Shown here: positions 35,004 through 53,745 of the stretch, piece after piece
How the letters are laid out: every line of letters begins with the position of its first letter
Numbering within the stretch: the first letter of the stretch is position 1
From: an uncultured Oleispira sp.
Lineage (GTDB): Bacteria > Pseudomonadota > Gammaproteobacteria > Pseudomonadales > Oceanobacteraceae
Reading direction: 5' to 3'
Assembly: GCA_913061415.1 (NCBI GenBank)
Contig: CAJXUD010000002.1
Coordinates: 310,001-374,000 of the forward strand
DNA length: 64,000 bases
The notes under the pieces: generated by a model
What the model saw: only the letters and a program-made list of their open reading frames with translations
The model's database searches: none
Told to the model about the DNA's origin: nothing
Made by a program: the position numbers and the translations under genes

Positions 35004-36230
35004 TTAAAAGCTTTCGTGCGGCCCGAATACTTCATAGTGAATACTATTATTTTCAACACCCAGAGTGACTAACTGCTGTTTCGCAAACTGCATAAAGCCT
35101 ACAGGTCCACAAAGATAAAAATCAGCATCCGATAATGGTAATTGCTCAGCAATCGCACTCACATCCATAAAACCATGGCGCTTAGATTCAACCGTTTCAG
35201 AGTTATACCAAGTATGGTTCATGATCTTCCCTTTTTGTGTCACTTCGTCATGACGCTTTTTAAAGGAGTGTTGAGCGGAGTTCTCACAGGCATGCAGAAA
35301 ATGTATTTCATGTTCTGTATTGGTTTTTTCCTGCTCGTCTAATAAAGTTTCTAGCATTGACTGCATAGGTGTTAAGCCAACCCCTGCAGAAATCAATACT
35401 TTTGGTTTGGGATTATTTTTAAGATGGAAGTCGCCCGCAGGTGGGTACAAGGTCACTTCTTCTCCGAGTCTTAGGCCATCGTGCAAGTAGTTTGAAACAA
35501 TACCGGGCTTACCCTGAATCTCACGCTTCACTGATATACGATAGCTTTCGCCATTGGCTTTATCAGACAACGAGTATTGACGAATTTCGCGGTAAGTTTC
35601 TTCATCCGTTTCACTTCCTGCAGTTTTTAATCCTTTGCTAGGATCAACTTCTATACCAATGTATTGCCCTGGCTGATAGCCAATCACTGGGCCGCCATCA
35701 ACCGGTTCAAAGATTAGACTTTTTACGAGTTCTGATTCGATGCGTTTTTCAACCAATCTAAAGGCTCTGCCACCTTTCCAGCCGCCTACGGTATTACTGC
35801 GCTGGTGATACAAGTCGGCTTCTTTATTAATAAAAACACCGGCGAGTACCTGATACGCTGCGACCCAAGCAGCTTCAATTTCTGAAGTAAATTGTTCAGT
35901 TGCCAGCTCGCGTAACGTTTCGATTAGATGAAGACCCACGATATCGTAATGTTCTGGCTGAATGTTCATGCTGGTATGCTTATGTGCAATACGCTCAACC
36001 ATACCGAGCAAATTTTCTAAATCATCAAGGTGGTATGCATACGCGGCAATCGCCGAAAATAATGCAAACGACTGGCGTCCTGATTTTTGATTGCTCATAT
36101 TAAAAATATGCTGCAACTCAGGATTATGTTGGAACATGCGCTTATAAAAATGCTCGGTGATCGCAGGACCGCCGGCTTCTAAAATTGGAATAGTACTTTT
36201 TACTAAGCGGATTTGTTCTTCATTTAACAT
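35004..36230 (-). CDS. hmp: flavohemoprotein, nitric oxide dioxygenase
   Basis: A 408-residue flavohemoglobin. The globin domain (residues 1-~140) has the proximal histidine region MVERIAHKHTSMNIQPEHY. The FAD domain carries RQYSLSD and the NAD domain SAGVGLTPM and CGPVGFM. It converts NO and O2 to nitrate using NAD(P)H. It is the second gene of a minus-strand pair after the ppyR-like gene, 113 bp apart. NorR sites and a sigma-54 promoter lie upstream of the pair. Confidence 0.97.
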   Translation of the reverse strand: MLNEEQIRLVKSTIPILEAGGPAITEHFYKRMFQHNPELQHIFNMSNQKSGRQSFALFSAIAAYAYHLDDLENLLGMVERIAHKHTSMNIQPEHYDIVGLHLIETLRELATEQFTSEIEAAWVAAYQVLAGVFINKEADLYHQRSNTVGGWKGGRAFRLVEKRIESELVKSLIFEPVDGGPVIGYQPGQYIGIEVDPSKGLKTAGSETDEETYREIRQYSLSDKANGESYRISVKREIQGKPGIVSNYLHDGLRLGEEVTLYPPAGDFHLKNNPKPKVLISAGVGLTPMQSMLETLLDEQEKTNTEHEIHFLHACENSAQHSFKKRHDEVTQKGKIMNHTWYNSETVESKRHGFMDVSAIAEQLPLSDADFYLCGPVGFMQFAKQQLVTLGVENNSIHYEVFGPHESF

Positions 36231-36854: not shown

Positions 36855-38498
36855 ATGGCCAATACTATGACCCGTGTTATGAACAATATTTCATATTCAT
36901 CCCTCATCGAGCTGGCGATTGATCTAAGCAGCAGCTTAATCAACAAAGACCGATTTGAGCGCTTATTAACCACCGTGCAAAAAAACATTCCTTGTGATGC
37001 GGTTGTCTTACTCGCTCGGCAAGGAGATAGCCTTAAGCCATTAGCCCTAAAAGGTTTAAGCCCTGATCTTTTAGGCAGACGCTTTGAAATTGATCAGCAC
37101 CCACGCTTTCAAAAGATTAGCCAAAGCACGGCACCGGTCAGGTTTGAAAGCAATAGCCCACTGCCAGACCCTTACGATGGTTTAGTACTGGCGATGGAAG
37201 GCGATTTACCCGTTCATTCGTGCATGGGTTTCCCCTTGCTATTTGAAGGCGCCTTAATTGGTCTATTAACGCTGGATAGCCTCACCCCAAATAGCTTCGA
37301 TGACATTCCTCAGCGCACCCTCGATATTATCTCTGCCATGTCAGCCGCATCGTTAAAAACGGCACTGACCTTAGATTTATTAGAGCAACACGCTTCCCAC
37401 AGTAAACAGCTGGTTGCCGAGCTCACTCACGAAGCCTTGATCAAAGATGGTGGCGAAATTATCGGCAATAGCCCGGTGATGAATAAATTAAAGAAAGAAA
37501 TTCAAATCGTCGCGCAATCGAATTTTACGGCCTTGATCTCAGGCGAAACCGGCGTCGGTAAAGAATTGGTCGCGCGTACTCTGCATCAACAATCCAGTCG
37601 CAGTGATGGTCCTTTGGTGTATGTGAACTGTGCGGCCTTGCCAGAAAATTTAATTGAGAGTGAGTTATTTGGTCATCGCAAAGGCGCGTTTACCGGCGCC
37701 AACGAAAATCGTTCTGGCAAATTTACCATTGCCGATGGTGGTACATTATTTCTCGACGAAATTGGAGAAATTCCGCTTGCAGTGCAAAGTAAGTTATTGC
37801 GTGCATTACAAAGCCGAGAAATTCAAGCCGTCGGGCAAGACAAAACTCATACCGTTGATGTAAGAATTATCGCCGCAACCAATAGGGACTTAGCGAAAGA
37901 AGTTGAGTTAGGGAACTTTCGTTCTGACCTTTATCATCGCTTAACTGTCTACCCTATTCTGGTTCCTTCATTAAGAGAGCGTGATAATGATATAGCGCTG
38001 TTAGCGGGTTATTTTATTGAACAAATTCGTCGTAAACTGGGTATACAACAAATAAAATTCGCCTCTGGCGTAACTTACTATTTAAGACAATATGACTGGC
38101 CAGGTAATGTTCGTGAACTAGAACATACTATTAATCGTGCAGCGTTAAAGGCAAAGAGTCATAAATTGGATAGCAATTTTTCTGAAAAAAATGTGGTGAC
38201 TATTGAGCTGTCTCATATTGGTCAACTGACCAATACCTTAGATATTCATAATGTGAATTTTGTTCGAGATATAGAGGAACAAGTCAGAACTGAAGAATCG
38301 AGCTTAAATTATCCATCCCCTGGCCTTGGTATAAAGTCAGCGACAGAAGACTTTCAACGCCAAATTATTACCAGTGCATTAAACCGACATGATAATAATT
38401 GGTCAGCCGCCGCCAGAGAGCTGAAAACAGATCGAGCTAACCTAAATCGCATGGCGAAACGCCTCGGGATTAGTATTATCAAAACAATACAAAACTAG
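36855..38498 (+). CDS. norR: NorR/FhpR nitric-oxide-responsive sigma-54 activator
   Basis: A 547-residue activator. The N-terminal GAF domain (residues ~15-180) aligns with E. coli NorR through [23 protein letters not shown]-like LPDPYDGL and CMGFPL, where NorR binds a single non-heme iron that senses NO. The AAA+ domain has GETGVGKE and GAFTGAN; the C-terminal Fis-type helix-turn-helix is [23 protein letters not shown]. Divergent hmp and ppyR are the targets. The linker between AAA+ and DNA-binding domains is long (547 residues against 504 in E. coli). Confidence 0.95.
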
Positions 38499-39248: not shown

Positions 39249-39791
39249 CTATTCATAAGTTAAATACTGTAATACTTGCATGCGCTCCGGCTGTGCGTTT
39301 AACCATTCACGAATTCTATCAGCCTCTTCGGCGACATCAGCTCCTACTGATTCTATAAATCGCTGGCGTCGAGCGTTTTCAGTAACTTGATCCCGTACTT
39401 GCTTTTGCCATTGCTCGGTAAAGACCAGTGGCATTTTAGAACCCAATTTAAGTGACTTTAATAAAGACCATTCTCCCTTATCTAACCAAGCCTCATCACA
39501 ATTAGTACACAAGTCTAAACGATTATCATGCTCACTCGAAACCCGATACTTAGTCATCATACGGCTGCACTTAGGGCAATTCATTGCGCTGTGCGTATTA
39601 TCAACGTCTTCGATATTAATATCTTCAGCTTGCTCACCTTCTGCTGAATCACCTAAAAAACGCTCTGCCCAATCACGATAATAAAGAAGAGATACAAAGA
39701 CACCAGCACAATCATTGCACCCCATTCCTGACAGTCCTTGCTCTAGCTTTGTCGGGTATAAGTCAGCCGTTTTACATTTTGGGCATTTCAT
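39249..39791 (-). CDS. TFIIB-type zinc-ribbon protein
   Basis: A 180-residue soluble protein with two zinc-ribbon modules: MKCPKCKTADL ... GMGCNDCAGVF (residues 1-31) and MNCPKCSRMM ... LDLCTNCDEAWLDKGEW (about 70-110), each with four Cys. The C-terminal third is helical and charged. It starts 15 bp after the AAA+ gene and has AAGGAA before its ATG, so it is the last gene of the PspA/flotillin/AAA+ block. Function unknown; protein or nucleic-acid binding is possible. Confidence 0.8.
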   Translation of the reverse strand: MKCPKCKTADLYPTKLEQGLSGMGCNDCAGVFVSLLYYRDWAERFLGDSAEGEQAEDINIEDVDNTHSAMNCPKCSRMMTKYRVSSEHDNRLDLCTNCDEAWLDKGEWSLLKSLKLGSKMPLVFTEQWQKQVRDQVTENARRQRFIESVGADVAEEADRIREWLNAQPERMQVLQYLTYE

Positions 39792-39806
39792 ACTGATATT
39801 CCTTAT

Positions 39807-42800
39807 CTACTTTTTCATTCTATATTCGGTTTCTAAAGCTCTTAACTGCGTTGAAATTTCTTTCATTTTGTCATGGGTTTTTAAGTCAATATCAATTTTT
39901 CGATCCATTGAGCGTACCATTGGAAAAATGCTATTTTCCATAGTATCCGCCAAAGCTTTCAATATTTTATCTAAACCTGGAACAGGCTGATTAATCACTT
40001 CTACTTTCGGTACTTCTTTTTGAGAAGACTGTTGAGCAATATATTTCATTCCAGCTGAAACAACCGATGTGAACTGACTCAGCGATTGATTCAACCCTTG
40101 TAGCTGCTCAATACTTGCAGCTTCATAAGGTTGCTCTTCACTACGACGAAGAGCTTCCGATTCTAAGCGCTGTAATTTGTCTTGCTCTCGTAATTGATTT
40201 GACTGCTCAGCATTTTCACTTAAAGACTTTACTCCACCAACCAAATCAACCAACTGTCCAATAACTTTGCCACCGACATCAGCATCATCACCCCCCATCG
40301 CTTTATTACGCAAAAAGTCGGATTTGATTTTCGTCCAGCGTGCAGACTCTTCATCCGTCATTTCACCGCGTAATTCAGCCAGCTTTAATAAGTTTTCTTC
40401 TGAGCCGTTGGTTAATAGCTGAGATTCACCCACATAGTGATCAGCAATCATCTGCATTAACTCGCCATGATTCATAACCGACGATACTTTTTCGGCCATT
40501 TTATTCATGTTTCGATAACTACCCTGCAATCTGAATGACGGCTCAGTGCGGTAATCATCTGATTGTGCAGCAGAAGCAATGTATTGCTGATTAATTTTCA
40601 ATACTACGTCTTGAATCACAAAGAGCTTCTTCAATACTTCGGTTATTTCATTCAGTTCTGCACTGCTGTATTGATGGCTTAAATCGGTTGTTGCAATATT
40701 TTCGCCATTAATCATACGTACAATTTTATACAGGTCGTTTAAATCCCGTGTCGCCAATGGCGCTAATACGGAATTAGAGGTCATGCAGTTTTCTACATAA
40801 CTCAATGCAAACTGCTCATCCATACCACCCAGAATATCCCCTAAGTTATAAATATCAGCACGGTTTGCTAGCATGTCTGGAACCTGAAATGCTTCACCGG
40901 TTTCGGTATAAGGGTTACCCGCCATCACCACGCAGAATTTTTTACCGCGCATGTCGTAGGTTTTTGTCTTACCTTTCCAAATACCTTCAATGCGACGTGT
41001 GCCATCACATAAAGAAATAAACTTTTGCAAAAACTCAGGATGTGTATGCTGAATATCATCCAGATACAGCATCACGTTACTGCCCATTTCTAGGCCCAAG
41101 TTTAACTTCTCTAATTCTTGTCTTGCGGTAGCGTTAGGCGCTTGTTCTGGATCTAACGATAAAACGTCATGCCCTAAAGAAGGACAATTAATTTTCATAA
41201 AGATCAAACCCAAACGACTCGCGACGTATTCCATCAGAGTCGTTTTACCGTAACCCGGTGGTGAAATCATCATCAACAAGCCCATCAAATCAGAACGCTT
41301 GCTATCGCCCAACGTTCCCATCTGCTTGGCTAAGTTATCGCCAATCAAGGGCAGATAAGATTCATTAATTAAGCGGTTACGAACAAACGAACTTAGCGGC
41401 TTTGGTTTAAACGACTCCAAGCCTAATAAGGCTCGCTCTTCTTCGATAATGCCTTGGCGCATCGCATGGTAATGATGGAAGCCCACAACAACACGATGCT
41501 TATGATCATCTAAACGCTGTAAAAATTCATCAATCGCTAGAGTGATGACTTGCTTATCAATTCGTGGATGATCTCCTAACAAACCGCTAATGGTTAATTC
41601 GGTATCCACTTCGGTAGGACGGCGCTCGATTCTGCCCTCGGCATTAATCATCGCCACCGCTTCCGGAATATATCGGGCTAGAGTTGTTAACCCTTTTCCA
41701 TCAACCAGCGCCGTTAACCAAGAATGCGTAAGATTCCAACGCTGCGCAACCTGACCAACCAACTTATCTAACGTCGCATGCAGCTTGCGCCATGAAGAAT
41801 CATCTAATGAATGTTTAAGCTCATCCACAAGTTGCTGGGCGTATTTACTGGCAATAAATTCAACTCGATCACGGCTCAATTCATGGACAAAATAATCCGC
41901 ACTGCGATTGATATCACTGGCGGCAATGGCTAATTCATAATGCGTAAAGAAATCTGTGAATGCTTGGTTTATCTCTCTGTGCAATAACTGAATAGCTTTA
42001 TTGTTATTAAAAATTTTCTTCATCTGAAACGCTGATTGTGCGCGTTCATGCCAGCTGTCTGCTTGCTGATGCAGTGCCAACAAGTTGCTTGCAGCATCTC
42101 TTTCTAAATGCTGAATATTGGCCCAAAAGACTTGAGCTAAACCACGACTCAGTGGATCAAATTTTAACTGGTCAGCACTGTCGATTGCGGGTAATAATTT
42201 TTGCAATAATAAAACTGCATCGTGATCGTGTATGCCTTTTTCATAACCTTCTTTATAACGAGGGTTCGCAAAATCACGGACCAGATCACGCAGTTTATTT
42301 TCATCCAACAAGGCTTGCTGCAGCAAGTCGTTATTTAGATCGTCAGTATTATTGTCGGCGGCCTCGATAATTAACGAGACCAAATATTCACTGCGATAAA
42401 CCTCAGGACTTTCCGACTCAAGTGCCATTTCCCAAAAAGGTCTTAGCTCTAATAAGTCGGTGCGAGTGAGCTGTTCAAAATAGTCCGTTCCGGTTAAGTG
42501 AATGTTTAACTCACCTTCACGCGGCACAATGGTTAAATCCAGCTCTTGGGTATTAACACTGAACTTATGACGAGGGCCAAGCTTAATGACATTGCCGCCG
42601 TTTTCATAAATTTCGGTCTTATCTCTTAAAGAACGTAACGCTTGCTCTTTAATCGACTTAAAGCGAGATTCAATATCATCCGCTTTTACCGCATTTTCCA
42701 GATCACGTAAGCGCTCAACCATATCCGCGGTTTTTAGCACTAATGAATCAGACGCAAAATATGTATTCAGATGTTCAGCGTCGGTGAACTTTAATGAACG

Positions 42801-45236
42801 ACGCTCAATACTGCTTAATATTCGATTCGCGGCATCCGTAACGGACTGAGCTTTACGTAAGCGCTCATCCAACAATTGCTGCTTATGGCTTTCGAAAGAT
42901 TGATAAACTTCGTCCCTTTTCGCCATAATGTCACTAAGAAATTCTTCAAAATCACTGAACTGACTTTCAAGTTCTTCTAACTGCACCAGCAAGCGCGATA
43001 GCTGTTCATCACAACGCTCTGGCGTAGTCGACATCCCAAGCGCATTAGTAATACTTTGCGAGAATAATTTAAACTGCGCACTAAACTGCGCGATGGCTTC
43101 TTCTGAACCAACGGATTTTTGTTTATGTTTAGCGGCGGCTTTACTCTGATTAAGCTTTGAATAGACTTCTGAAATAGCATCAATAATACGTGTGCGCACA
43201 GTCGCATCATTAACTTTTAAAGAAGACATCAGCTCAGATAATAAATCCAGGCCTGATGCTGTTTCTTCTATCTGCTCAATAATGGGCGCTAGCACGGCAA
43301 TTGTTTCTGCTTTACTAACTTCATCATCAAAGGTTTCTATTTTATCAAAATACGGAGAGAGCGCAGCGTCTTGTGATAAAAACTCAACCGTTTTTTCGCT
43401 TAGCTTTTCTTGTGTTTGAATAAGATGCTGATCCAATTCGTCTAGACGGACGGTATCGATGTAGCGGTTTTCTTTAATCGTTGCGAGGTGACCACGTTGC
43501 TGACGTAAAGCATTCAATGCAGCAACAAATTCTTCTGCGACTTGCCAGTTTTCAGGGCGTATAGAAGCGATGAGTTTTTGTTGTTGTTCTTCTGCGTTCG
43601 ACATTGCATGCTGAGACTGCTGCCGAATACTCTGAACTTTCTCAAATTCATCAATCACCAGTTCAGAGGTTTTCGATATTTGCTTAATCAAAGAAGCAAT
43701 TGAATTATTGGGGTCGATTAAAACTTCTTGGCTATTTGAATATTCTTCGATCCAGTAATGGGAGTCAAAAAAGCGATTCGCCGTTTTACTGAGCTCTTCG
43801 TAAATTCTTGCCGATACAGTTTGGTCGGAAATCATGCGATGCAAGCTGAATAAATCAGAAACCCCTCGCACTAACGATGCATTACCTATTTTGCCAAAGA
43901 AGCTCTGACTCACATCCGCACGACTGGCATAATCGTCACTAACAAAAGACGTTTGCCAAATTTGCATGGGATGAATACGCGTCGGTTCGTTCTCGGCAGA
44001 AAAAATAACCAAAATACCATTATCAGAGAGTGCATAACCGTGACCATAGATAGGGTTTTGCATCGACTTACTAATTAGATTATAGGAAAAAAGTCCAAAT
44101 AGTCCTTGCTCTGGTTCGTAAAAAACAAACAGTACATCTTCACCATTAGGTGACTTGATCATGCGTTTGAATTTAAGGGATTGACCGTCTTCTAGTGACG
44201 CTAAAGCATCTCCTTCAAAGGTTTTCATTTCACCGGTTTGCAAATAATAACCACCGGGGAAAATAATACCGTGATCTTCAGGCAGTTGAACACAAGACTG
44301 ACCAATGTCATCAATTTTAACCACTTCATCGGTTAACGTATTAAAAACAAAATAGCGCCACTGCTCTTCTCTGTAGGGTAATATTTTTAATAGTACCAGT
44401 GCGCCTACACTGGCGTAAAAAAACTGGCCGTCATCTAGGGATTGAGTTTTATCCTCAACCGGCTCGCTATAAACACCTTGACCATTTTCGGTATTGTTTT
44501 CGATTTTAATGGTCAAATCGCCATTAATCGTTTCTACAAATACTTTATCAAGAATATTGATATGAGAGTGGCGGCCATGCTCGGTATCTTCACGATCGGT
44601 GGCTATCCATTCAAAATCGTAGGCGTTTGGCAGCTGAATATCACGTTCACCACGATTATCAATGTAGGTAATGTCTTTGCCATCGGCAGAAACTGACCAA
44701 CGAAAAACACGAATGTCTTCTAAGCGTTCGCCAATTTGAAAGCCCGCTAATAACTTGCCATCTTTTACCGTTAGCTGTACCAAGCGCGTTTGTTTGTAAT
44801 AACGATAGAGCTCGATAAAATCGCTTTGAAATGATGGCGAAGCTAAAAAGCTATCGTCATAACTGGCGGTTTCAAGACTGTAACTTTCCCCATCATTATT
44901 GAGTTTAAATAATGAAAACACATCTTCAACAACGGTTTCTTTTTTTAGACCAATAAAGACGTTATAGCCAAAAAGAAGATAATCACCGATTTGCACCATG
45001 TCTCGCGCTACACAGTTATTTTCTGTGCGTACACGGACTCGCGAAATAACACTCAAATCTGAACTGCCAAATTCAGATAATCGTGCTTCATTTAAAGCTC
45101 GAGCTTGTTGGTTTAATAGTCGCCCTTGCTCAACTAAGCGCTTACGAATAACGTCATAAGCACCACCTTCGGCAACGGCATTCTCTACTTGATTTTCGAC
45201 TTGGTTTTCGACTTGAGTGTTTTTTTGCTCAGCCAT
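39807..45236 (-). CDS. giant coiled-coil AAA+ ATPase (DUF3686/'DNA repair ATPase' family)
   Basis: A 1809-residue protein without signal peptide. Residues 1-~25 hold a VENQ repeat. Residues ~30-480 are beta-rich and propeller-like. Residues ~490-920 are coiled coil (HAMSNAEEQQQKLIASIRPEN ...). The AAA+ domain (~1300-1560) has Walker A PPGYGKTTL near residue 1325, Walker B MLYLDDIQ near 1392 (Asp-Asp in place of the usual Asp-Glu) and sensor-1 VVMAGNP. Coiled coil returns at the end. Databases label this family a DNA repair ATPase, but context (flotillin, PspA, YqiJ) points to the membrane. AAGGATCTCGCT precedes the ATG. Confidence 0.85.
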   Translation of the reverse strand: MAEQKNTQVENQVENQVENAVAEGGAYDVIRKRLVEQGRLLNQQARALNEARLSEFGSSDLSVISRVRVRTENNCVARDMVQIGDYLLFGYNVFIGLKKETVVEDVFSLFKLNNDGESYSLETASYDDSFLASPSFQSDFIELYRYYKQTRLVQLTVKDGKLLAGFQIGERLEDIRVFRWSVSADGKDITYIDNRGERDIQLPNAYDFEWIATDREDTEHGRHSHINILDKVFVETINGDLTIKIENNTENGQGVYSEPVEDKTQSLDDGQFFYASVGALVLLKILPYREEQWRYFVFNTLTDEVVKIDDIGQSCVQLPEDHGIIFPGGYYLQTGEMKTFEGDALASLEDGQSLKFKRMIKSPNGEDVLFVFYEPEQGLFGLFSYNLISKSMQNPIYGHGYALSDNGILVIFSAENEPTRIHPMQIWQTSFVSDDYASRADVSQSFFGKIGNASLVRGVSDLFSLHRMISDQTVSARIYEELSKTANRFFDSHYWIEEYSNSQEVLIDPNNSIASLIKQISKTSELVIDEFEKVQSIRQQSQHAMSNAEEQQQKLIASIRPENWQVAEEFVAALNALRQQRGHLATIKENRYIDTVRLDELDQHLIQTQEKLSEKTVEFLSQDAALSPYFDKIETFDDEVSKAETIAVLAPIIEQIEETASGLDLLSELMSSLKVNDATVRTRIIDAISEVYSKLNQSKAAAKHKQKSVGSEEAIAQFSAQFKLFSQSITNALGMSTTPERCDEQLSRLLVQLEELESQFSDFEEFLSDIMAKRDEVYQSFESHKQQLLDERLRKAQSVTDAANRILSSIERRSLKFTDAEHLNTYFASDSLVLKTADMVERLRDLENAVKADDIESRFKSIKEQALRSLRDKTEIYENGGNVIKLGPRHKFSVNTQELDLTIVPREGELNIHLTGTDYFEQLTRTDLLELRPFWEMALESESPEVYRSEYLVSLIIEAADNNTDDLNNDLLQQALLDENKLRDLVRDFANPRYKEGYEKGIHDHDAVLLLQKLLPAIDSADQLKFDPLSRGLAQVFWANIQHLERDAASNLLALHQQADSWHERAQSAFQMKKIFNNNKAIQLLHREINQAFTDFFTHYELAIAASDINRSADYFVHELSRDRVEFIASKYAQQLVDELKHSLDDSSWRKLHATLDKLVGQVAQRWNLTHSWLTALVDGKGLTTLARYIPEAVAMINAEGRIERRPTEVDTELTISGLLGDHPRIDKQVITLAIDEFLQRLDDHKHRVVVGFHHYHAMRQGIIEEERALLGLESFKPKPLSSFVRNRLINESYLPLIGDNLAKQMGTLGDSKRSDLMGLLMMISPPGYGKTTLMEYVASRLGLIFMKINCPSLGHDVLSLDPEQAPNATARQELEKLNLGLEMGSNVMLYLDDIQHTHPEFLQKFISLCDGTRRIEGIWKGKTKTYDMRGKKFCVVMAGNPYTETGEAFQVPDMLANRADIYNLGDILGGMDEQFALSYVENCMTSNSVLAPLATRDLNDLYKIVRMINGENIATTDLSHQYSSAELNEITEVLKKLFVIQDVVLKINQQYIASAAQSDDYRTEPSFRLQGSYRNMNKMAEKVSSVMNHGELMQMIADHYVGESQLLTNGSEENLLKLAELRGEMTDEESARWTKIKSDFLRNKAMGGDDADVGGKVIGQLVDLVGGVKSLSENAEQSNQLREQDKLQRLESEALRRSEEQPYEAASIEQLQGLNQSLSQFTSVVSAGMKYIAQQSSQKEVPKVEVINQPVPGLDKILKALADTMENSIFPMVRSMDRKIDIDLKTHDKMKEISTQLRALETEYRMKK

Positions 45237-45355
45237 AGCGAGATCCTTCTGTTCTAACGATTATCCCAAAGATGGCTGTTAAAGCCTCCTTTAAAACGAA
45301 GAGTCAGAGAGCGTAATTGCTACGCCCCCTGTATTAGCTTAAATACTCAATCGTA

Positions 45356-47335
45356 TTAACTATTCGTCGTCGCTTCGTTACTAGCCGTCACTTCGCTATC
45401 AGCAGCTGTTTTTTTCTTGCTTTGGTTATCCATTACCGTCGCTAATAATGCACCCACAGTACTGCTCTTCTGAGCAACACCATCAATCGCTTTACCTAAC
45501 GACAAAGATTTAGAGAAGGTGTCGAAGAAATGGCCTTCACCACCCACAATATCGATTTTCGCTTTCTGCAGAGCCGTCGATAGAACTTCTGCATTATCAC
45601 GCGCAATTTCTTTACCCGCATCCAACGAAGCAATCGCTTCTTTGAAGGCTGTCTCTAGGCTCATACGGAACTCTTCGTGGTCACGAGCTTGTTCGCTCAT
45701 GCCGCCCATAGCATCGAACTTCTCAACCAGACCTTCGGCTTCGGCTTTAAAGTGTTCGCGCGTAACATCGGCTTCAGCAAGACCGACTTCTTTCGTTGCG
45801 GTCGCATTTGCGCTGCCTTTAGCACTGATTACTTCAGCATCGGCTAAACCTGTTTCACGCAACGCCTTACCTTCTGATACGCCTTTCGCAGCAACAACCG
45901 CCGCTTCAGCTAGACCTTCTTTCTCTAAGGCATCCGCTTTCGCTTCTTGTACTTTTGCTTGTGCTAGCCCAGGTGCCGCTTGCTCTGCTTGTGTACCTTC
46001 CGCCAGTTTCTTCTTCGATTCCGCTTCTTTCGAAGACGCATCTAGATTTGCTTGAGCCAGCGTCGTAATTTCTACGGCTTTGAATTTGGCTGCCTGCTCT
46101 TCAGCTTCGGCCGCTTTCACTTGCTTAACCTTTAACTCATCGGCATCGCCTTCGGCCGCCAATACTTGAATCTGCTTCAGACGATCAGCTTCAGAAACTT
46201 CACGTACTTCTTTAATACGCTCTTCTTCGATCGCAACCGTTTTATCAACCACAACACGCTCACGGATAACGTTAGCGATTTCTTTCTTTTCGATCTCAAT
46301 GGCTTTTTCAGCTTCAATCGTCTGCAAGTCAACTTCACGTTCACGGGCAACGATCTCTAAATCTTTAGCGCGGGTCACTTTTTCAACTTCAATCACAACC
46401 GCACGCTGGCGATTCTGTTCGGCGACTTCGATTTCACGTTTTTGATTTTCAGTTTGAACCGCTAGGTCTTGCTCAACCTGAATACGAGTTGCTTCTGATC
46501 TGCCACGTTCTTCTTCTTGTACTTTTAACGTTTCAGCTTCTTCACGAGCACGAATGGTCGCAACCTCTCGTTCTTGCTTCGCTTCTGCATCAGCCTGCTG
46601 ACGCTCTAACTCAAGCATGGCTTCACGTGTTTCTACATTCTTCTTTTTAATGGCTAGATTTTCGTTTTGCTCTAGCTCATTGGTAATCACATTCTGGCTA
46701 GCGGTTAGCTGTGTGATTTTTTTGATACCCTCAGCATCAAGAATGTTATTAGAATCCAATGCGTGTTTTGGTGTTTGCTCTAAATAATCAATGGCAACAT
46801 CTTCTAATACATAACCGTTCAAATCGTCACCAATTACTTCTACGATTTTTTCACGGAACTGTAGACGATTTTCAAATAGCTGAACAAATTCGATCTGCTT
46901 ACCCACGGTTTTCAAGGCTTCAGAGAATTTAGCAGCAAAAAGATCATAAACAGCCTCTTTATCGGATGCGCGATCAGCACCAATCGACTTAGCAACGCGT
47001 AATACATCTTCTGGGGTTTCATTCACTCGTAAGTAGAAAGCAACAGTGATATCTGCTCGCATGTTATCCAGGCAGATCAAGCCGTCTTTACCGCGACGAT
47101 CGACTTCTAAAGTGATCAATGAAACTTTCATTAATTCCTTTTTGTAGATAATCGGATAGACCAATGCGCCAGTGAAGTGCACCTTAGGGGTTGAGCTCAT
47201 GTCGTTTACGATCAACGCTGTGCCTTGTGCTACCTTGATGTAAAAGGCTTGGAATAACATCGCAAGCCCCATCAGGATAATAATAAAAATTCCCAAGCCG
47301 GTTAAGATCGGCATTAATACTGATAAATCAGCCAT
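45356..47335 (-). CDS. flotillin-like SPFH protein (YqiK type)
   Basis: A 659-residue membrane-anchored protein. One N-terminal helix (residues ~8-30) leads into an SPFH/Band-7 domain (~30-210, ALIVNDMSSTPKVHFTGALVYPII). A very long Glu/Ala/Lys-rich coiled coil (~210-560) includes repeated EAxxKxEGL-like units typical of flotillins. Flotillins oligomerise on the inner membrane and mark ordered lipid zones. GGAG lies 8 nt before the ATG. The YqiJ-type gene lies 72 bp upstream; this YqiJ/YqiK pairing is known in E. coli. Confidence 0.9.
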   Translation of the reverse strand: MADLSVLMPILTGLGIFIIILMGLAMLFQAFYIKVAQGTALIVNDMSSTPKVHFTGALVYPIIYKKELMKVSLITLEVDRRGKDGLICLDNMRADITVAFYLRVNETPEDVLRVAKSIGADRASDKEAVYDLFAAKFSEALKTVGKQIEFVQLFENRLQFREKIVEVIGDDLNGYVLEDVAIDYLEQTPKHALDSNNILDAEGIKKITQLTASQNVITNELEQNENLAIKKKNVETREAMLELERQQADAEAKQEREVATIRAREEAETLKVQEEERGRSEATRIQVEQDLAVQTENQKREIEVAEQNRQRAVVIEVEKVTRAKDLEIVAREREVDLQTIEAEKAIEIEKKEIANVIRERVVVDKTVAIEEERIKEVREVSEADRLKQIQVLAAEGDADELKVKQVKAAEAEEQAAKFKAVEITTLAQANLDASSKEAESKKKLAEGTQAEQAAPGLAQAKVQEAKADALEKEGLAEAAVVAAKGVSEGKALRETGLADAEVISAKGSANATATKEVGLAEADVTREHFKAEAEGLVEKFDAMGGMSEQARDHEEFRMSLETAFKEAIASLDAGKEIARDNAEVLSTALQKAKIDIVGGEGHFFDTFSKSLSLGKAIDGVAQKSSTVGALLATVMDNQSKKKTAADSEVTASNEATTNS

Positions 47336-47407
47336 AACAATTACTCCATTTGTTTTTAAGTTTCGTTTTTTAAAGTTCTAAGTTTCGTTTTTTTTAATTT
47401 CAGTTTT

Positions 47408-48100
47408 TTAATTCAAGAAGTCGGTTTCGGAGATCACCCGATACGCATGCTGATCTTTTAGATATTCCAATAAGACTACTCGATCGCCTTTTTTAAAGGT
47501 TTCATCACCATGGGTACGTGCTTTAAATATTAAGCCCGCACCACCGTCCGCTAATAGCACTTCACCAAAAGAAGCGTCTAGGCGCAAAGAACGCACAATA
47601 GCGGTTTGGCCAAGCACATTTTTTATCGAATTTTTATACATATTGGCGAAGAAAGGCTTGAGTGGTTTTATGACCTGCGCCGTCATTAATATTGATATAG
47701 CGAGGGAACCCAAAAGAATCGGTAAGCCGACGATATACTCTATTATTTCATTCGGAATAAATGGAAAGATAAAATGAACCGCGAAGTAACAGATTAACCA
47801 GCCAAATAAAGATAAGAAAGAAAGACTGACTGTTAATGGCACACCATTAAGACCCAGTTTTAATAGCAAACCTGCGACAGCATTGGCACCTGTGCCAGTA
47901 TCGTTAGTAAGGTCACCATTAATTTCGAGATCGCCTTCTGGAATATCCATATCTAAGATATCCAGGTCTACCACGCCTAGCACCGCACTCAACCAATATA
48001 AGGTCGTTAGGGCTAATAAGAGGGTAAAAAACAGCGTCGGGAAGGAAGCAATATTTTGATAGAAGGGATCCATCTTATCACTTAACAATATTGCAAACAT
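47408..48100 (-). CDS. yqiJ: YqiJ-type membrane OB-fold (NfeD-like) protein
   Basis: A 230-residue protein with about three membrane helices (residues ~20-40, ~95-115, ~125-150) and a C-terminal OB-fold (GQTAIVRSLRLDASFGEVLLADGGAGLIFKARTHGDETFKKGDRVVLLEY), the module of NfeD-like flotillin partners. ATG 48100 has AAGGA 7 nt upstream; a GTG two codons earlier is the alternative. It precedes the flotillin gene, as yqiJ precedes yqiK in E. coli. Confidence 0.82.
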   Translation of the reverse strand: MFAILLSDKMDPFYQNIASFPTLFFTLLLALTTLYWLSAVLGVVDLDILDMDIPEGDLEINGDLTNDTGTGANAVAGLLLKLGLNGVPLTVSLSFLSLFGWLICYFAVHFIFPFIPNEIIEYIVGLPILLGSLAISILMTAQVIKPLKPFFANMYKNSIKNVLGQTAIVRSLRLDASFGEVLLADGGAGLIFKARTHGDETFKKGDRVVLLEYLKDQHAYRVISETDFLN

Positions 48101-48155
48101 GTGCACATCCTTGTCTTAAATTTATATCAATACGAATCCGCGTACTTTCATATGG

Positions 48156-48201
48156 CGCACCTTATATACAATTTATCTTTCAAGACAAAATATAAGGTGC
48201 G
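48156..48201. promoter_or_regulatory. inverted repeat between pspA-like and yqiJ genes
   Basis: CGCACCTTATAT (48156-48167) and ATATAAGGTGCG (48190-48201) are exact 12-bp inverted arms with a 22-nt spacer. It lies in the 176-bp gap inside the block. It could be a stem-loop that adjusts downstream expression or the operator of an internal promoter. Confidence 0.55.
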
Positions 48202-48276
48202 TTATATTAACGATTTTTAACGTCGTTAACAGTCGCTTCTTCTCATTTAAACCATAAAACAAACAATTAATTTAAA

Positions 48277-48963
48277 TTATTGTTTGTTTTTTAACCGCTC
48301 CAATACATTACTGGCCTGCTGCCCCTGGTTAGCTATACCTGCCTGCTGTAATTTCTCTTGAAGTGATTGCTCAGCAGTAGAACCTTGTAGTTCTTCAGCC
48401 GCTTGTAGCTTGGCAGCGGTTAACGTCTGCTTTTGCTTGATACGCTCTAAAGAATCCATGGCAGTTTGCAGTTTGGTATTAGAGCCTGCATACCGCTGAG
48501 ATACTGATTCTTGTGCACGCTGTACGCTTTCAGTCGCTTTCACTGTATCGATTTGCTGCTTCAAACGCTTGATATTATTATCGGCGGATGCAATCGCGGC
48601 TTTTAAACGGGCGGCACTTGTAGAAAAACCATTAACGGCCTCTTCTTCAAAGCCTTTTTGGTTTTCTAGCGTGGCAATTTTTTCAGCAATTTCTAATGCC
48701 AGTGCTTCATCTTTTTGCTCTAGAGCTTTCAGTGCATAACCTTCGTACTCAGTAATGCTACCGACTAGCGCTTCGACTTTTTGCTCGGCGACTTTTTGCT
48801 GAGCAATAATCGCGACCAAACTTTCTTTTGAAAGCTTTAGCTCAGCAGATGCGTCGCGTACTTCCTGATCTAAAATCCGCAGAGCCTGTGTATCCACAAC
48901 CGCCTCTCCTGCTTCATTCATTCCACCACGTAATGCCGTTAACATTTTTGACCATAAGTTCAT
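48277..48963 (-). CDS. PspA/IM30 family protein
   Basis: A 228-residue helical protein of the PspA/IM30 family (YjfJ-like). It opens with an amphipathic helix (MNLWSKMLTALRGGMNEAGEAVVD) and continues as long coiled-coil helices; QALRILDQEVRDASAEL matches the family helix 1-2 region. PspA proteins belong to the ESCRT-III superfamily and polymerise on stressed inner membranes. AGGAG lies before the ATG. The DUF2170 gene lies 26 bp upstream. There is no pspF/pspBC nearby. Confidence 0.9.
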   Translation of the reverse strand: MNLWSKMLTALRGGMNEAGEAVVDTQALRILDQEVRDASAELKLSKESLVAIIAQQKVAEQKVEALVGSITEYEGYALKALEQKDEALALEIAEKIATLENQKGFEEEAVNGFSTSAARLKAAIASADNNIKRLKQQIDTVKATESVQRAQESVSQRYAGSNTKLQTAMDSLERIKQKQTLTAAKLQAAEELQGSTAEQSLQEKLQQAGIANQGQQASNVLERLKNKQ

Positions 48964-48989
48964 GATTAATCTCCTAGATCTAAGGGTAT

Positions 48990-49637
48990 TTAAGCCGTTT
49001 CAGGCGTGGTTTGAAAAGTAAGAAACTCGGCGTAGGCTTGAGTTGCTTGAATGACGTTATTGGCCAACATATCGATTTCTAATAATATGTTCGATAATAA
49101 TGAAGACGCACTCAAGGCCCCAAACATGTGGTAAACCGATTCGCCATTCGCCATGGTATCTAAACTAATGGTCGATAATGGAAAGTACTTGTGCGTTCGC
49201 AATACTGCATCATTGAAGCCTGCAATATCGGCAACGTCATTAACCGACCACAATACCGACTCAACAATGATTTGCTCACCGACAACGGTTAAGAAAACCG
49301 GCAAATCACCAAAAGCCTTCATTTCTATATAGATCGAGGCATCAATACCATCAATCAGTTCGATACTGGCTTGATTCGTTGTAAATAGAGGCTCTTGCTC
49401 TAATGCCGCCTTTAAGCTCTGGCTTGTCCATAGCTCGGGTAATTCTTGTAAGTTTGCCATAACAAACTCTCCTTCCTTTATTGTTTCAACCAAATTTGGT
49501 TCACGTAACGTTTTCTCCGCCTGAGACAGCAGTCGTGCGTTCTCTGGGCGAATCCAAACTTCCTTTTTTACCAGCCCCTGCTCTCTTAAGCGGCGGCGGA
49601 ATTCTCTTTGATAGTGTGCTGATGTTTTTTGTGTCAT
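48990..49637 (-). CDS. yjfI: YjfI-like DUF2170 protein with N-terminal RHH-like segment
   Basis: A 215-residue protein. The N-terminal ~35 residues (YQREFRRRLREQGLVKKEVWIRPENARLL) resemble a ribbon-helix-helix DNA-binding segment. Residues ~75-210 match the DUF2170 domain found in YjfI, adjacent to a PspA homologue (YjfJ) in E. coli. It is the first gene of the minus-strand block, and the three palindromes upstream suggest that it binds its own promoter (inference). Confidence 0.75.
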   Translation of the reverse strand: MTQKTSAHYQREFRRRLREQGLVKKEVWIRPENARLLSQAEKTLREPNLVETIKEGEFVMANLQELPELWTSQSLKAALEQEPLFTTNQASIELIDGIDASIYIEMKAFGDLPVFLTVVGEQIIVESVLWSVNDVADIAGFNDAVLRTHKYFPLSTISLDTMANGESVYHMFGALSASSLLSNILLEIDMLANNVIQATQAYAEFLTFQTTPETA

Positions 49638-49651
49638 AACTAACCATACTC

Positions 49652-49707
49652 ATTACATGTAATGCCGTCAAGCATCACATGTAATAAAATAATGACTTAC
49701 ATGTAAT
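49652..49707. promoter_or_regulatory. three 12-bp palindromic operators at exact 22-bp spacing
   Basis: ATTACATGTAAT (49652-49663), ATCACATGTAAT (49674-49685) and CTTACATGTAAT (49696-49707) share the palindromic core ACATGTAAT and begin exactly 22 bp apart, two helical turns. They lie just upstream of the yjfI start and are likely to control the whole block. Confidence 0.8.
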
Positions 49708-49835: not shown

Positions 49836-51653
49836 TTAAGAATTACTAATCCACAAGGTTTGATAAGGCACCAGCTGAACCAGCATTTCTTGGCGGGTCA
49901 ATTTATTACCCGTTATCAAGTCAGACCAGTTGTATGTACAGTCTAGATTTATGTCTGACAACATAAACTCTTGCGGCTGATCGCTAATGTTACTAATGCA
50001 AAAGATACTTTGAGTCTTATCGATCGACTGCCTCCAATAAGCAAAAATGGCATCCCCCAAATGCAAGGTGTACTGCAGCGCATTGGGATGAAACGCTTTC
50101 TGCTGTTGACGAATAGCTAATAAGCTTTTCAGTTGAGTGAAGACTGTTTTGTGGTGGCTGTCTGATGTACCTAACGCTGATGTGCCTAACGCTGATGCAG
50201 TTAACGCAGATGAGCTTAAAAGCATCTGAAGCTCGTCGTATTGCCATTGATGGCGATTGATTGAGCGATTGTGCCCGGTATTTTCCATACGCTGATAATC
50301 ATTACCCGTTGCTAATAAGCTGTGCACATAAATCCCGGGAATACCTTCTAAGCCCAACATAATGGCATGAGCACAAACAAAGCGATCAATGCCGTTATCA
50401 TCTTCACCGTTAATGGTTCCTTTTAAGGCATCAAATAAGGCGATGTTCACTTCATAGGGCTTTTGAATACTTTCACCCAGCTCGCTTTCTAATGCCCGCC
50501 AAGAAATTCGCCCGCCAAAACCTTGCAACGTTTCGACCAATACTTGAGTTTCTTTATCGCCTAAAATGCCTTCTACCGGTCTTAATCCCAAGCCATCGTG
50601 TGAGGCAATAAAGTTAAAATACGTGGTCCCTAATTGCGCGGGCGGCATGCTCATTAACCAGAGTTTTAAATGATGACTATTACCGGTTAACAAAGTATTA
50701 ATTAATAGCGGCGGCAAGGCAAAGTTATAAACGCAGTGGGCTTCATTGGCATTACCAAAGTAAGATAAATTTTCGCGATTAGGAATATTGGTTTCGGTAA
50801 TGATCACCGCGTCCATTTGCGCATGCTCGATCAATAATCGTAATAGTCGCACAACGTTGTGTGTTTCTTCTAAGTTGATACTTTGCGAACCGGCTTTTTT
50901 CCATAAAAACGCAATAGCATCTAGCCTAAAGATACGCACACCCATATCGAGATACTGGCGTATTATTGTTACGAACTGCAATAACACCTCTGGGTTTCTA
51001 AAGTCTAAATCAACCTGATCATGACTGAACGTACACCAAACATGCTGCAGACCTTTTGGGGTTTGAGTCGCTCTTAATAATTCACTGGTTCTTGGCCTAA
51101 CCACCTGAGATAAGTCTGAATCAGGAGATTCGGTATAAAAGTAATCATGCCCTGGGCCTTCGCCTTTTATGAAGTTTTGAAACCATAAGCTACGACTGGA
51201 ACAATGGTTAATCACAAGATCGGCCATTAGGCGATAATCGTGACTAATACTTTGAATATCTTCCCAACTTCCTAATGCTTCATTAATACTCGAAAAATCC
51301 ATCACAGCAAAACCATCATCAGAACTGAAGGGAAAGAACGGCAAAATATGCACGCTATTAATCAGTCCTTCGCAGTGCTCATCTAAGAAATGCTTTAAGG
51401 TGATGAGCGGTTTTTCGTTAGGCGATAAAAAACTATCACCATAAGTGATCATGATCGTTGATGATTGATCCCACAAATCACAGGGGTGCAGCGAGTCATG
51501 GGAAGCGCCATCATAACGACTACCCCCTAGCCGCATTGTTTCTAAAAGATTTTTCGCCAAAACACCTGTGGGGACATCAATATGGGTTTCATGATAAATC
51601 ATATCTAACAAGTGCTGACAACGCTGTAATAATGCAGAATCGAATAAGCTCAT
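49836..51653 (-). CDS. GH13_18 sugar phosphorylase, likely glucosylglycerate phosphorylase
   Basis: A 605-residue alpha-amylase-superfamily enzyme of the sucrose-phosphorylase group. Catalytic residues can be placed in [12 protein letters not shown] (nucleophile Asp), [16 protein letters not shown] (acid/base Glu) and [12 protein letters not shown] (transition-state Asp). Known GH13_18 members include sucrose phosphorylase and glucosylglycerate phosphorylase (E. coli YcjM). The neighbouring GT, phosphatase and glycerate kinase genes favour the latter: glucosylglycerate + Pi gives glucose-1-phosphate + D-glycerate. The start overlaps the GT stop (ATGA). A 15-bp tandem duplication codes for the [11 protein letters not shown] loop near residue 490. 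Confidence 0.82.
50163..50207. repeat. 15-bp tandem repeat inside the GH13 gene
   Basis: TGATGTACCTAACGC, TGATGTGCCTAACGC and TGATGCAGTTAACGC follow each other with 15-bp period (50163, 50178, 50193). They encode a Ser/Ala/Leu/Gly/Thr-rich surface-type insertion near residues 482-497. Confidence 0.75.
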
Positions 51654-52876
51654 CGTGACATAAACTCCTTATTATCTTCTTCAACAGCCTCGTATAAACG
51701 TTCTAAAATATCAGGTTTAGCGCTAATAACGCGATTCCAGCTTGGAATAAAAGGCGTTTCCATCGGTTTATCTAAAAAAGCTTCCCCTGCCTTCATAATA
51801 TTCTGAGCAAATAATTCAACGGCTTTTTCTTCAGAGTGAATATCCAAAGTTAAGCCATTCATTACTGCATCGTTATGATACGTTTCGATAAAATCTAAGG
51901 CGATACGATAGTAAGTTGCTTTAATCGAGCGGAAGGTTTCGGTATTGAATGTTTTGCCATGAGTGGCGAGTTTTCTAAAGAGTGCTTTAGAAATATCAAT
52001 CGACATTTTTGATAAACCACCTTGATCGTTATCTAAAGATAAGTCTTGGTGCTTATGATCATACACATCTGCGATATCAACTTGGCATAAACGATTATTG
52101 GCATAGTTTCTGTGCATTTCAGATAACACACCAATTTCTAACCCCCAATCACTTGGAATACGAATATCATTTAAGACATCTTTACGAAATGAAAACTCCC
52201 CGGCTAATGGATAGCGGAAGCTGTCCATAAACTGTAGGTATTCCATTTCACCAAATATTTTTTTGAGCGCTCGTAATAGCGGCGTCACTAATAAACGACT
52301 GACTCGGCCATTAATTTTTCCATCGGCAACACGGGCATAAAAGCCTTTGCAAAACTCATAATTAAAACGAGGGTTTGCAACGGGATAAATCAATCGTGCT
52401 AGCAGTTCTCTATCGTACGTCACGATGTCGCAATCATGTAAAGCAACGGATTCAGAGCGGTTAGATGCTAAGGTATAGCCCATGCAATACCAAACATTTC
52501 GGCCTTTACCTAACTCTTTAGGTGCTAGATCTAATGCTTGTAGCTCGGCATCTAATGCTTGTAATCGCGGGCCTTCATTCCATAATACGCGATGATGTTG
52601 CGGTAGCTTGGAAAAGAAAGTTAACGCATGTCGATACTGCGCTTCATCAGCGCGGTCTAAGCCAATAACGATTTCATTAAGATAATCTGCACCTGTTAAA
52701 TGGTTTACGATATTGGGCAACGCATCGCCTTCTAGCTCCGAGAATAAGGATGGCAAAATTAATGACATCGGTCGTTTTTTGCTAAAGATTCTCAGCTCTT
52801 CTTCAAGCGCCTCAATAGGGCGATGAGCTAGGTTATGTAATGTGGTTACGATACCATTTTGATAAAAGTCAGCCAT
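51650..52876 (-). CDS. GpgS-like glucosyl-3-phosphoglycerate synthase (GT-A glycosyltransferase)
   Basis: A 408-residue GT-A fold enzyme. [11 protein letters not shown] opens the nucleotide-binding half; [18 protein letters not shown] gives the metal-binding DxD-like motif, and [11 protein letters not shown] and [26 protein letters not shown] match the GT81/GpgS family. Expected reaction: NDP-glucose + 3-phospho-D-glycerate gives glucosyl-3-phosphoglycerate. The next enzyme, an MpgP-like phosphatase, is encoded 35 bp upstream. A mannosyl version (MpgS) is a less likely alternative. Confidence 0.82.
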
Positions 52877-52911
52877 GATAATTCCTTATAAATAAAATTA
52901 GATTAATAACG

Positions 52912-53745
52912 TTATAAAATCTTTCGTAAGCCTGAATTCCAGCCTACCGGCCCAAACTCTTCTGAGATAAAAAAGCCACGCACTCGTTTTAATTTTGGCG
53001 GAGCGTGTACTGGGGATCGAATGATTAAGGCGAGGTCAGCCGCTTCGAGCATTGCGACATCGTTATCACTATCTCCTACGGCAATTGTTTTTAGCGCTGG
53101 CGCTGTGCATTCTTTTTCATATTGCTTGTTATATTCTTCCGCCAGCCAGACTAATGCTTTTCCTTTGTCACAAAAGCCACTTAAATGCAGAAAGCGTCCA
53201 CCTTGTAATACGTGCCCGCCCTGCTCTTCTAACCATTGGATAAAGACTTGTTTAGCGCTTTCTACTCCCAACCAAGAAATGGGCTCGCCGTATTCACGAG
53301 TATTCGCCTGCAGCGCTTGCTGTTGAGATAGCCCAGTGACTTGCGCAATCACTTCTTCTTTCATCGCAGAAAAATGACTAAAGCTATAAGGAAATATTTT
53401 CTTAGCGTTATCCAGTATCGAAAGCCAATGACTGCGTGGCTGAGAAAAGCTATAAACCCAAAAACCATCGCGCTCAATACAGCCTTCTGGCTTGCTTTCA
53501 AAATAGCCTTGTGGGATATAAACCGCCGCACCATTTTCGGTAATAAACGGGTGCCTATTATTTAACTCTACTCGTAAGGCTTCGACTTCTGCCCGAGTTT
53601 TACTGGTGGTTAATATGACTGGGATTTCATCTTGATCTAGCTTTGCGAGTAAAGCATCAGCCGCGGCATGACTGTATGTATCATGATCTAAAAGCGATCC
53701 ATCAAGATCACTGAATATTAACCATTTATTATTGGGACTAACCAT
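52912..53745 (-). CDS. HAD-IIB mannosyl/glucosyl-3-phosphoglycerate phosphatase
   Basis: A 277-residue HAD phosphatase. The nucleophile motif is FSDLDGSLLDHDTYS; motif II is LTTSKT and the metal-binding motif IV AVGDSDNDVAML. FITENGAAVYIP is typical of the MpgP/YedP group. It removes phosphate from the glycosyl-3-phosphoglycerate product of the adjacent synthase, giving glucosylglycerate. It overlaps the kinase gene by 8 bp. Confidence 0.87.
   Translation of the reverse strand: MVSPNNKWLIFSDLDGSLLDHDTYSHAAADALLAKLDQDEIPVILTTSKTRAEVEALRVELNNRHPFITENGAAVYIPQGYFESKPEGCIERDGFWVYSFSQPRSHWLSILDNAKKIFPYSFSHFSAMKEEVIAQVTGLSQQQALQANTREYGEPISWLGVESAKQVFIQWLEEQGGHVLQGGRFLHLSGFCDKGKALVWLAEEYNKQYEKECTAPALKTIAVGDSDNDVAMLEAADLALIIRSPVHAPPKLKRVRGFFISEEFGPVGWNSGLRKIL

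Follow-up and report, generated by a model that had tools for sequence, protein, structure and literature searches.

Which protein controls a bac-type PspA operon, and at which site? The question arises from a stretch of 64,000 nucleotides from an uncultured Oleispira sp. (GenBank assembly GCA_913061415.1, contig CAJXUD010000002.1, positions 310,001 to 374,000 of the forward strand), the whole of which is called the window here. Its minus strand carries six open reading frames (ORFs) in the order bacA, a gene of the DUF2170/YjfI family, pspA, a yqiJ-like gene, a flotillin-like gene, a gene for a giant AAA+ protein and a zinc-ribbon gene (Table 1), and the ORF calls, with matching sizes, bear out the six genes, the single strand and the order that an earlier sequence-only reading had described. 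The gene order bacA-pspA-yqiJ-flotillin-AAA+ is that of the bac operon of the Pseudomonas aeruginosa type, and the block is an operon of the P. aeruginosa bacA-F type; because it matches the published operon, the gene block is not new. What appears to be new is an autoregulatory circuit of bacA. We consider it likely that this bac-type PspA operon is controlled by its own first gene, with bacA encoding, in two products, an antitoxin-like direct autorepressor.

In front of bacA lie three 10-bp palindromes, a ATTACATGTAAT array whose start-to-start spacing is exactly 22 bp. The three-site operator array of the sequence-only reading was thus recovered, and comparable arrays are conserved in relatives. 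At 80 further named bacA loci, at least one site was present within 200 nt at 78 and at least two at 55, whereas random windows from the same loci gave 14 and 0 of 15,243, and shuffled upstream regions 81 and 1 of 8,000, respectively; the counts for two or more sites place the operator beyond chance. With the looser core YACATGTR, at least two sites were found in 160 nt in 79 of 81 upstream regions, and 79 of the 85 intervals between such core sites measured 21-24 bp. Eight of 194 genomes show the strict tandem pattern, in 10 places altogether, and by coordinates every one of these lies directly upstream of a long bacA gene. No strict tandem sites were found elsewhere in the 194 genomes, and a backwards control gave none. 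Six genomes with a long form miss the strict pattern because of a mismatch, a different spacing or another operator type.

The exact palindrome occurs once more in the genome of the window, as a single site (C6:26822) before a gene that looks SRPBCC-like by eye, and one-mismatch sites are about as frequent there as in a reversed control (214/215 against 225/209). A wider regulon of the operator was rejected, since the single site was judged to be due to chance and the one-mismatch sites remain at the control level.

The presence of the array follows the form of BacA. An order-wide search for DUF2170 yielded 44 places in 39 of the 194 genomes, and the 30 places examined comprise 14 long forms, which carry an N-terminal head, and 16 short forms. 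Thirteen of the 14 long forms have at least two TTACATGTAA-like sites (at most one mismatch) in the 250 nt upstream, and the 14th, a Pseudomonas gene with a divergent head, has two CACGCGTG palindromes of the TCTCACGCGTGAGA type instead. No TTACATGTAA-like site was found upstream of any short form (0/16), four of which have a single match with two mismatches. The CACGCGTG type recurs at all 30 loci of the divergent-head clade, and intermediates were seen in other loci. The type of core also goes with the head. The middle residue of the K-x-E motif in its ribbon agrees with the operator core in 141 of 145 long genes, although the 144-145 bacA genes compared here and below are not independent, many of them coming from closely related Pseudomonas. 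Lysine is found with CATG in 92 genes and with no site in one, arginine with CATG in 17 and with no site in one, and histidine with CGCG in 32, two further histidine genes having one site of each kind. Genome G489 encodes both kinds of BacA (L172 and L227), each gene with its own operator type.

Headless genes of Pseudomonas add a side observation. In genome G491, a headless bacA gene (L228, contig C3), with what looks by eye like a decayed remnant of the head, is preceded by two CACGCGTG sites with a 24-bp interval, and the intact H-type bacA elsewhere in the same genome (L173) uses this type. This may represent a natural take-over of a gene by the regulator of its headed paralogue. Two other headless Pseudomonas bacA genes, L174 and L229, have no site upstream.

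The head itself is strongly conserved among relatives (KxSAHYQRxFRxRLREQGLVKKEVWILPEHA...). It is missing from the known structure of BacA, as the crystal 8q8o aligns only with residues 68-207 of the window protein and the 46-residue N-terminus lies outside. Mismatch rates at the three codon positions, taken over 3,000 pairs, are 0.37/0.26/0.59 in the head and 0.32/0.22/0.53 in the chaperone domain, and this resemblance is the reason for regarding the head as kept as protein. In an hhalign comparison of 97 heads with seven sequences of the MazE-like antitoxins (PF11455), a probability of 88.4% was reached over 26 columns, and 30 column-shuffled controls reached at most 1.26%. A monomer model places helices at residues 6-19 and 31-45. 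These comparisons support an antitoxin-like mode of action of the head. We do not claim that it belongs to PF11455, because the gathering score of the family (22 bits) was not reached, the best real head (L065) scoring 15.3 bits (E 0.021). The C-terminal part of BacA has the CesT/Tir fold, with Foldseek matches to 8q8o (1.9e-16), SigE (5.3e-4) and ExsC-ExsE (1.1e-2).

The position of the array relative to the gene start is conserved as well. A core site lies at most 32 nt from the bacA start in 73 of 81 upstream regions, and in 64 of these 73 a -35 TT and a -10 TAnnnT stand in a fixed register, with a 17-bp spacer enclosing the site. This conserved register is what supports the promoter predicted in the window, whose boxes are one base out of the register of the relatives, with a spacer likewise of 17 bp. 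In 67 of the 73 regions the distance from the start of the core to the ATG is 26-27 nt, and from the placement of core and boxes the RNA start should therefore fall at or next to the bacA ATG. Judged from this arrangement, the bacA mRNA looks leaderless. A Shine-Dalgarno-like sequence precedes bacA in 3 of 81 cases, compared with 76 of 78 for pspA.

A second start is signalled within bacA. A Met codon follows the head, in the linker, in 137 of 144 distinct bacA genes (where the linker has several, the best one was scored), and a Shine-Dalgarno 4-mer stands at the right distance before it in 135 of the 144 and a 5-mer in 131, against 22 and 13, respectively, of 578 control in-frame Mets. The short product predicted from this start has 144-145 aa in 91 of the 137 genes and 156 in the window; the crystallised chain has 146 residues.

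For P. aeruginosa, Wallart 2024 (PMC10948618; this and the other papers are cited for individual passages) reports that bacA-bacF form one operon in PA14 by reverse transcription-polymerase chain reaction. In a bacA mutant, BacB, BacC and BacD rose 7.2-, 7.9- and 13.5-fold, and PA14_16190 and PA14_16200 8.9- and 6.1-fold (PMC10948618). The same paper gives a strong BacA-BacB interaction as unpublished. The six genes of the window are presumably co-transcribed too, and an autorepressor would agree with the increase of BacB-F, 6- to 13-fold, published for the bacA mutant.

The proposed mechanism starts from sequence comparison, namely from the operator, its specificity for bacA, the match of core and head type and the internal start signal, and we infer from these that BacA binds DNA and that both starts are used. 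The repressor of the operator is probably encoded by bacA itself, a point that the sequence-only reading, which had noticed the operator, did not make. Long BacA, translated from the predicted leaderless mRNA, would carry an antitoxin-like head on a CesT/Tir-type chaperone domain, and its dimers would bind the palindromes, spaced in the window by two helical turns, and keep the operon off. Dimers at neighbouring sites may cooperate, and occupancy of the site in the spacer between -35 and -10 would block RNA polymerase. Short BacA, from the internal Shine-Dalgarno start, would consist of the chaperone domain alone and bind its client or partner without repressing; alternatively, it might enter into mixed dimers that are inactive. 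CesT-type domains bind client segments, and for this reason, together with the unpublished interaction mentioned above, PspA is the likely partner. The chaperone domain would bind PspA, and free or membrane-assembled PspA would act as the signal that sets operator occupancy, with sequence alone leaving PspA as co-repressor and PspA as inducer indistinguishable. Once the switch is open, PspA would coat or repair the membrane; a second sub-machine would consist of YqiJ, flotillin and the AAA+ motor, flotillin assemblies being the most likely substrate of the motor. A further possibility, which we would put somewhat below an even chance, is that the PspA system follows the wiring of toxin-antitoxin modules: a chaperone with a DNA-binding head would sense how PspA is assembled and repress its own operon, the short form would act as an anti-repressor, and the switch would be set by the amount of leaderless translation relative to translation from the Shine-Dalgarno start.

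The palindromes could instead be sites of an unlinked regulator, with BacA as a chaperone only that controls the operon indirectly. This would agree with Wallart 2024 (PMC10948618), where BacA is framed as acting via protein-protein interactions by analogy with ExsC, and with the CesT fold of the crystal. If the regulator were unlinked, there would be no reason for its sites to follow the BacA head, yet the core changes with the head; moreover, the strict tandem sites were found nowhere else in the 194 genomes, and no sites were found where the head is missing (0 of 16 short forms), the exception, L228, having the operator type of its headed paralogue. We therefore regard an unlinked regulator as unlikely. 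The internal start, for its part, might be an unused remnant of an older short gene, since, judged by eye, the starts of short-form genes fall near the corresponding position. The Shine-Dalgarno sequence is kept there far more often than before control Mets, while the linker residues differ (KEGE, EKEEG, KGES, MEEG), and we regard a remnant as unlikely too.

Other observations weigh against a BacA autorepressor. The spacing is variable, 8 of 13 long forms having a 22-24 bp interval and the others 15-40 bp; locus L166 is without the core, and L104 has it only with one mismatch. The match of histidine to CGCG comes mostly from one clade, and as the genes are related it reflects few independent changes. 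The MazE-like likeness is confined to 26 columns, and single-sequence Pfam matches to PF11455 are weak and stay under the cut-off (in six of 12 heads, with a best E of 0.035). In a second set of eight heads, five had no match to any Pfam family and one matched PF11455 at 0.13; no PDB relative of the head was found, and the ribbon is of low confidence in the monomer model, with a predicted local distance difference test score (pLDDT) below 50. Seven of the 144 genes are without a scored linker Met and two more without a Shine-Dalgarno sequence, three of these nine missing because the linker rule stopped early. The BacA studied in P. aeruginosa is a 146-residue chain without the head; the best match to the 8q8o sequence among 398 genomes, probably from the genus Pseudomonas, is 77%. 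Finally, a sigma-54 promoter has been proposed for P. aeruginosa (Mace 2008, PMC2587700; Wallart 2024, PMC10948618). A sigma-54-like pattern was found in 2 of the 81 upstream regions of relatives, P. aeruginosa not being among them, and this speaks against that proposal for these relatives.

The substrate of the giant AAA+ protein is a separate question. Seen from the bacA side, the AAA+ gene is present at 73 of 80 named loci, YqiJ at 77 and flotillin at 75. Five of the seven loci without an AAA+ match end at a contig edge (L048, L058, L059, L099 and L107), and the remaining two, L065 and L071, are also without yqiJ and flotillin. PspA is a relative of ESCRT-III, and the frequency of the AAA+ gene near pspA at these loci speaks for a motor that disassembles PspA polymers as Vps4 does ESCRT-III. 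The sequence-only reading had offered this role, and ESCRT-like complexes are suggested in Ravi 2024 (PMC11237479).

Seen from the AAA+ side, the association points elsewhere. A search with PF12458, which is independent of PspA, found the family in few genomes, 4 of 229 in the class and 8 of 398 in the phylum (each figure includes the window genome), and a search with the C-terminal third of the protein gave 12 plasmid-collection records, including Deinococcus, Streptomyces, Nonomuraea and Hymenobacter. The 21 loci compared are the window, eight of the nine other genome matches (G191 was left out) and all 12 plasmid records, of which L197 and L207 are near-duplicates. Flotillin adjoins the AAA+ gene in 21 of 21 loci (at L187 with one small ORF between), and YqiJ lies near it in 20, over a range of Pseudomonadota, Deinococcus, actinomycetes and Hymenobacter. 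PspA was found at 6 of the 21, at five in the fetched flanks and at the sixth, plasmid pQBR103, at a greater distance upstream but within one gene run; the flanks of the plasmid loci reach about 2-3 kb beyond YqiJ, so that a more distant PspA may be missed, and the rest of the genomes was not searched. Conversely, all seven fluorescent-Pseudomonas bacA-pspA pairs examined are without a flotillin or AAA+ gene within about 6 kb downstream, and for one of them (G147) no PF12458 match was found in the whole genome. Judging by these neighbourhoods, we read the operon as two cassettes, bacA-pspA and yqiJ-flotillin-AAA+, that are joined in bac operons, a pattern that favours flotillin over PspA as the substrate of the motor.

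Of the earlier suggestion that the AAA+ protein remodels PspA or flotillin, flotillin is thus the better half. The co-occurrence check proposed with it gave a divided answer, the AAA+ gene standing usually without PspA in the fetched flanks (15 of 21 loci, where a role in trans is possible) and never without flotillin, and the Vps4-like action on PspA found little support; we consider it improbable. Remodelling or loading of flotillin/YqiJ assemblies, which belongs to our proposal as a claim of its own, stands at about an even chance: flotillin and YqiJ accompany the gene across phyla, but the claim rests on gene neighbourhood and the clade of the AAA+ module was not settled by the model. The Pfam matches of the module to AAA (3.1e-6) and to the dynein-related AAA_5 (3.5e-6) are about equal, and its model (pLDDT 66.9) ranks MoxR-type NorQ at 1-5 and archaeal Vps4 at 14, all with a low template modelling score. 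No MIT domain, which binds ESCRT-III tails, is among the Pfam matches of the protein at E 0.1. A sequence search with the full protein gave no PDB relatives at 0.1, and a profile search gave two P-loop-only matches. We agree with the sequence-only reading that the database label 'DNA repair ATPase' is poor, because the constant neighbours of the gene are flotillin and YqiJ.

Some AAA+ loci deserve mention for their gene content. On the large plasmid pQBR103 (L196/L230), one gene run comprises a long bacA, pspA and genes for rhomboid, DUF2491, DUF350, DUF1190, glutathionylspermidine synthase, YqiJ, SPFH and the giant AAA+ protein. Two Streptomyces plasmids (L199 and L204) have the flotillin-AAA+ pair; YqiJ gave a weak match or none there, and the fetched flanks showed no PspA. 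At L185 (G665), yqiJ-flotillin-AAA+ is preceded by a divergent DUF2170-like gene, and PspA was not detected by profile.

Within the block, the BacA family model (NCBIfam NF050185) gives the window protein 299.4 bits against a cut-off of 300. The flotillin-like gene has no Pfam match, and its name depends on the annotation of relatives. The AAA+ protein matches DUF3686 in Pfam at 7.5e-200, in addition to DUF7902 and AAA. Although genes and order stand as the sequence-only reading gave them, the zinc-ribbon gene is not a regular member: it was found by tblastn at 5 of 80 bacA loci and was rejected as a core part for that reason. With a loose CxxC pattern, 11 of 66 matched, and several of these were clearly unrelated sequences. 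Other AAA+ loci (L183, L187 and L202) likewise have the two-zinc-ribbon gene nearby, but in the opposite orientation. The defence families of PADLOC gave only weak matches (best 0.0046).

Around the block, genes were assigned by eye. Upstream of bacA, what looks like a cluster of the glucosylglycerate osmolyte type (49836-53745, minus strand) comprises a sucrose-phosphorylase-like gene, a glycosyltransferase and a HAD-type phosphatase; it is of interest because PA3731 was reported to accumulate on osmotic shock (Mace 2008, PMC2587700). Just after the upstream gene, a palindrome, GAGACTGATCAGTTCTC, is followed by a T-run (49825-49809, minus strand), which a terminator scan did not report. On the other side of the block, a flavohaemoglobin-like gene (35004-36230) and a divergent NorR-like GAF/sigma-54 activator (36855-38498) probably form an independent nitric-oxide response. 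The NorR-like regulator was rejected as the owner of the operator, as the sites track bacA in relatives.

Table 1. Features of the bac-type operon and its control region in the window (positions are those of the window)
Feature	Position	Strand	Remarks
Operator site 1, TTACATGTAA	49697-49706		exact palindrome; arrays conserved in relatives
Operator site 2, TTACATGTGA	49675-49684		22 bp from site 1
Operator site 3, TTACATGTAA	49653-49662		exact palindrome, within the 17-bp promoter spacer; similar placement in relatives
Sigma-70-type promoter TTGACG-17-TATGGT (predicted)	49643-49671	-	scan 9 of 12; 1.0 expected from shuffles
bacA (DUF2170/YjfI family), long product	48990-49637	-	215 aa; Pfam DUF2170 1.4e-47
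BacA N-terminal head, residues 1-46, predicted DNA-binding (MazE-like antitoxin-like, helix-ribbon-helix)	49500-49637	-	hhalign, model, conservation
Internal Shine-Dalgarno region (GGAAGGAGAGTT)	49465-49476	-	in the linker after the head
Predicted short bacA product, internal ATG (residue 60)	48990-49460	-	156 aa, CesT/Tir-fold domain only; about the content of crystal 8q8o
pspA/bacB	48277-48963	-	Pfam PspA_IM30 9.9e-43
yqiJ/NfeD-like membrane protein (bacC position)	47408-48106	-	YqiJ_N below cut-off, 16.7 vs 23 bits; conserved neighbour
Flotillin/SPFH-like protein (bacD position)	45356-47335	-	659 aa; relatives annotated SPFH/flotillin
AAA+ protein (bacE position)	39807-45236	-	1809 aa; DUF3686 41-494, DUF7902 625-708, AAA module about 1320-1580
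Two-zinc-ribbon protein	39249-39791	-	Zn_ribbon_TFIIB in two stretches (Pfam); occasional neighbour

The block itself, the membrane-stress idea and the ESCRT-like role are already in print; the module that the sequence-only reading had proposed is accordingly supported and, at the same time, known (PMC11237479, PMC2587700, PMC10948618). For the circuit, the wordings 'ribbon-helix-helix', 'DNA-binding' and 'palindrom' are absent from the main text of Wallart 2024 (PMC10948618). Among the open-licence PMC papers that the searches listed, none deals with this operator or describes BacA as binding DNA, which does not prove that no such paper exists. Membrane-damage sensing by PspA systems outside the enterobacteria is largely open, and our analysis offers for it a candidate sensor-repressor, its operator and two predicted products. 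If the proposal is true, it accounts for the rise of BacB-F in the bacA mutant and for a crystallised BacA that shows the chaperone fold only, gene starts would be corrected where the short form alone is annotated, and the giant 'DNA repair ATPase' family would be redirected towards flotillin.

Antitoxins share a general layout of a DNA-binding head, a partner-binding tail and an operator of their own. The N-terminal segment of the MazE-like type II antitoxins (PF11455) is similar to the BacA head; unlike these, BacA comes with no toxin, its proposed partner is PspA and its C-terminal part has the CesT fold. In the psp system of Escherichia coli (PspF-PspA), a PspA operon likewise has its expression tied to the state of PspA, but PspF is a sigma-54 activator, whereas our proposal for bac is a repressor that acts at a promoter of the sigma-70 type. 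Our proposal also differs from the papers on P. aeruginosa bac cited above, which propose sigma-54 with a chaperone-type regulator; in that operon, as in the window, DUF2170 comes first and is followed by PspA, NfeD/YqiJ, SPFH (PA14_16180, that is PaFlo3; PMC13086221) and two more genes. The CesT/Tir-PspA-band7-YqiJ-AAA+ neighbourhood of Ravi 2024 (PMC11237479) has the same gene set as the window; there the AAA+ protein, with a beta-propeller and a coiled coil, is called novel, an ESCRT-like role is suggested and abbreviated flotillin-YqiJ-AAA+ operons are noted. Its passages on these genes describe no regulator-operator circuit, the ribbon-helix-helix factor there being a separate last gene of another operon. 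Finally, in the YqiK-YqiJ and FloT-YuaF pairs (SPFH survey of the Hinderhofer type, PMC2636767), an NfeD/YqiJ protein stands beside an SPFH protein, as it does in the window, which differs from these flotillin-NfeD pairs by the addition of the giant AAA+ gene.

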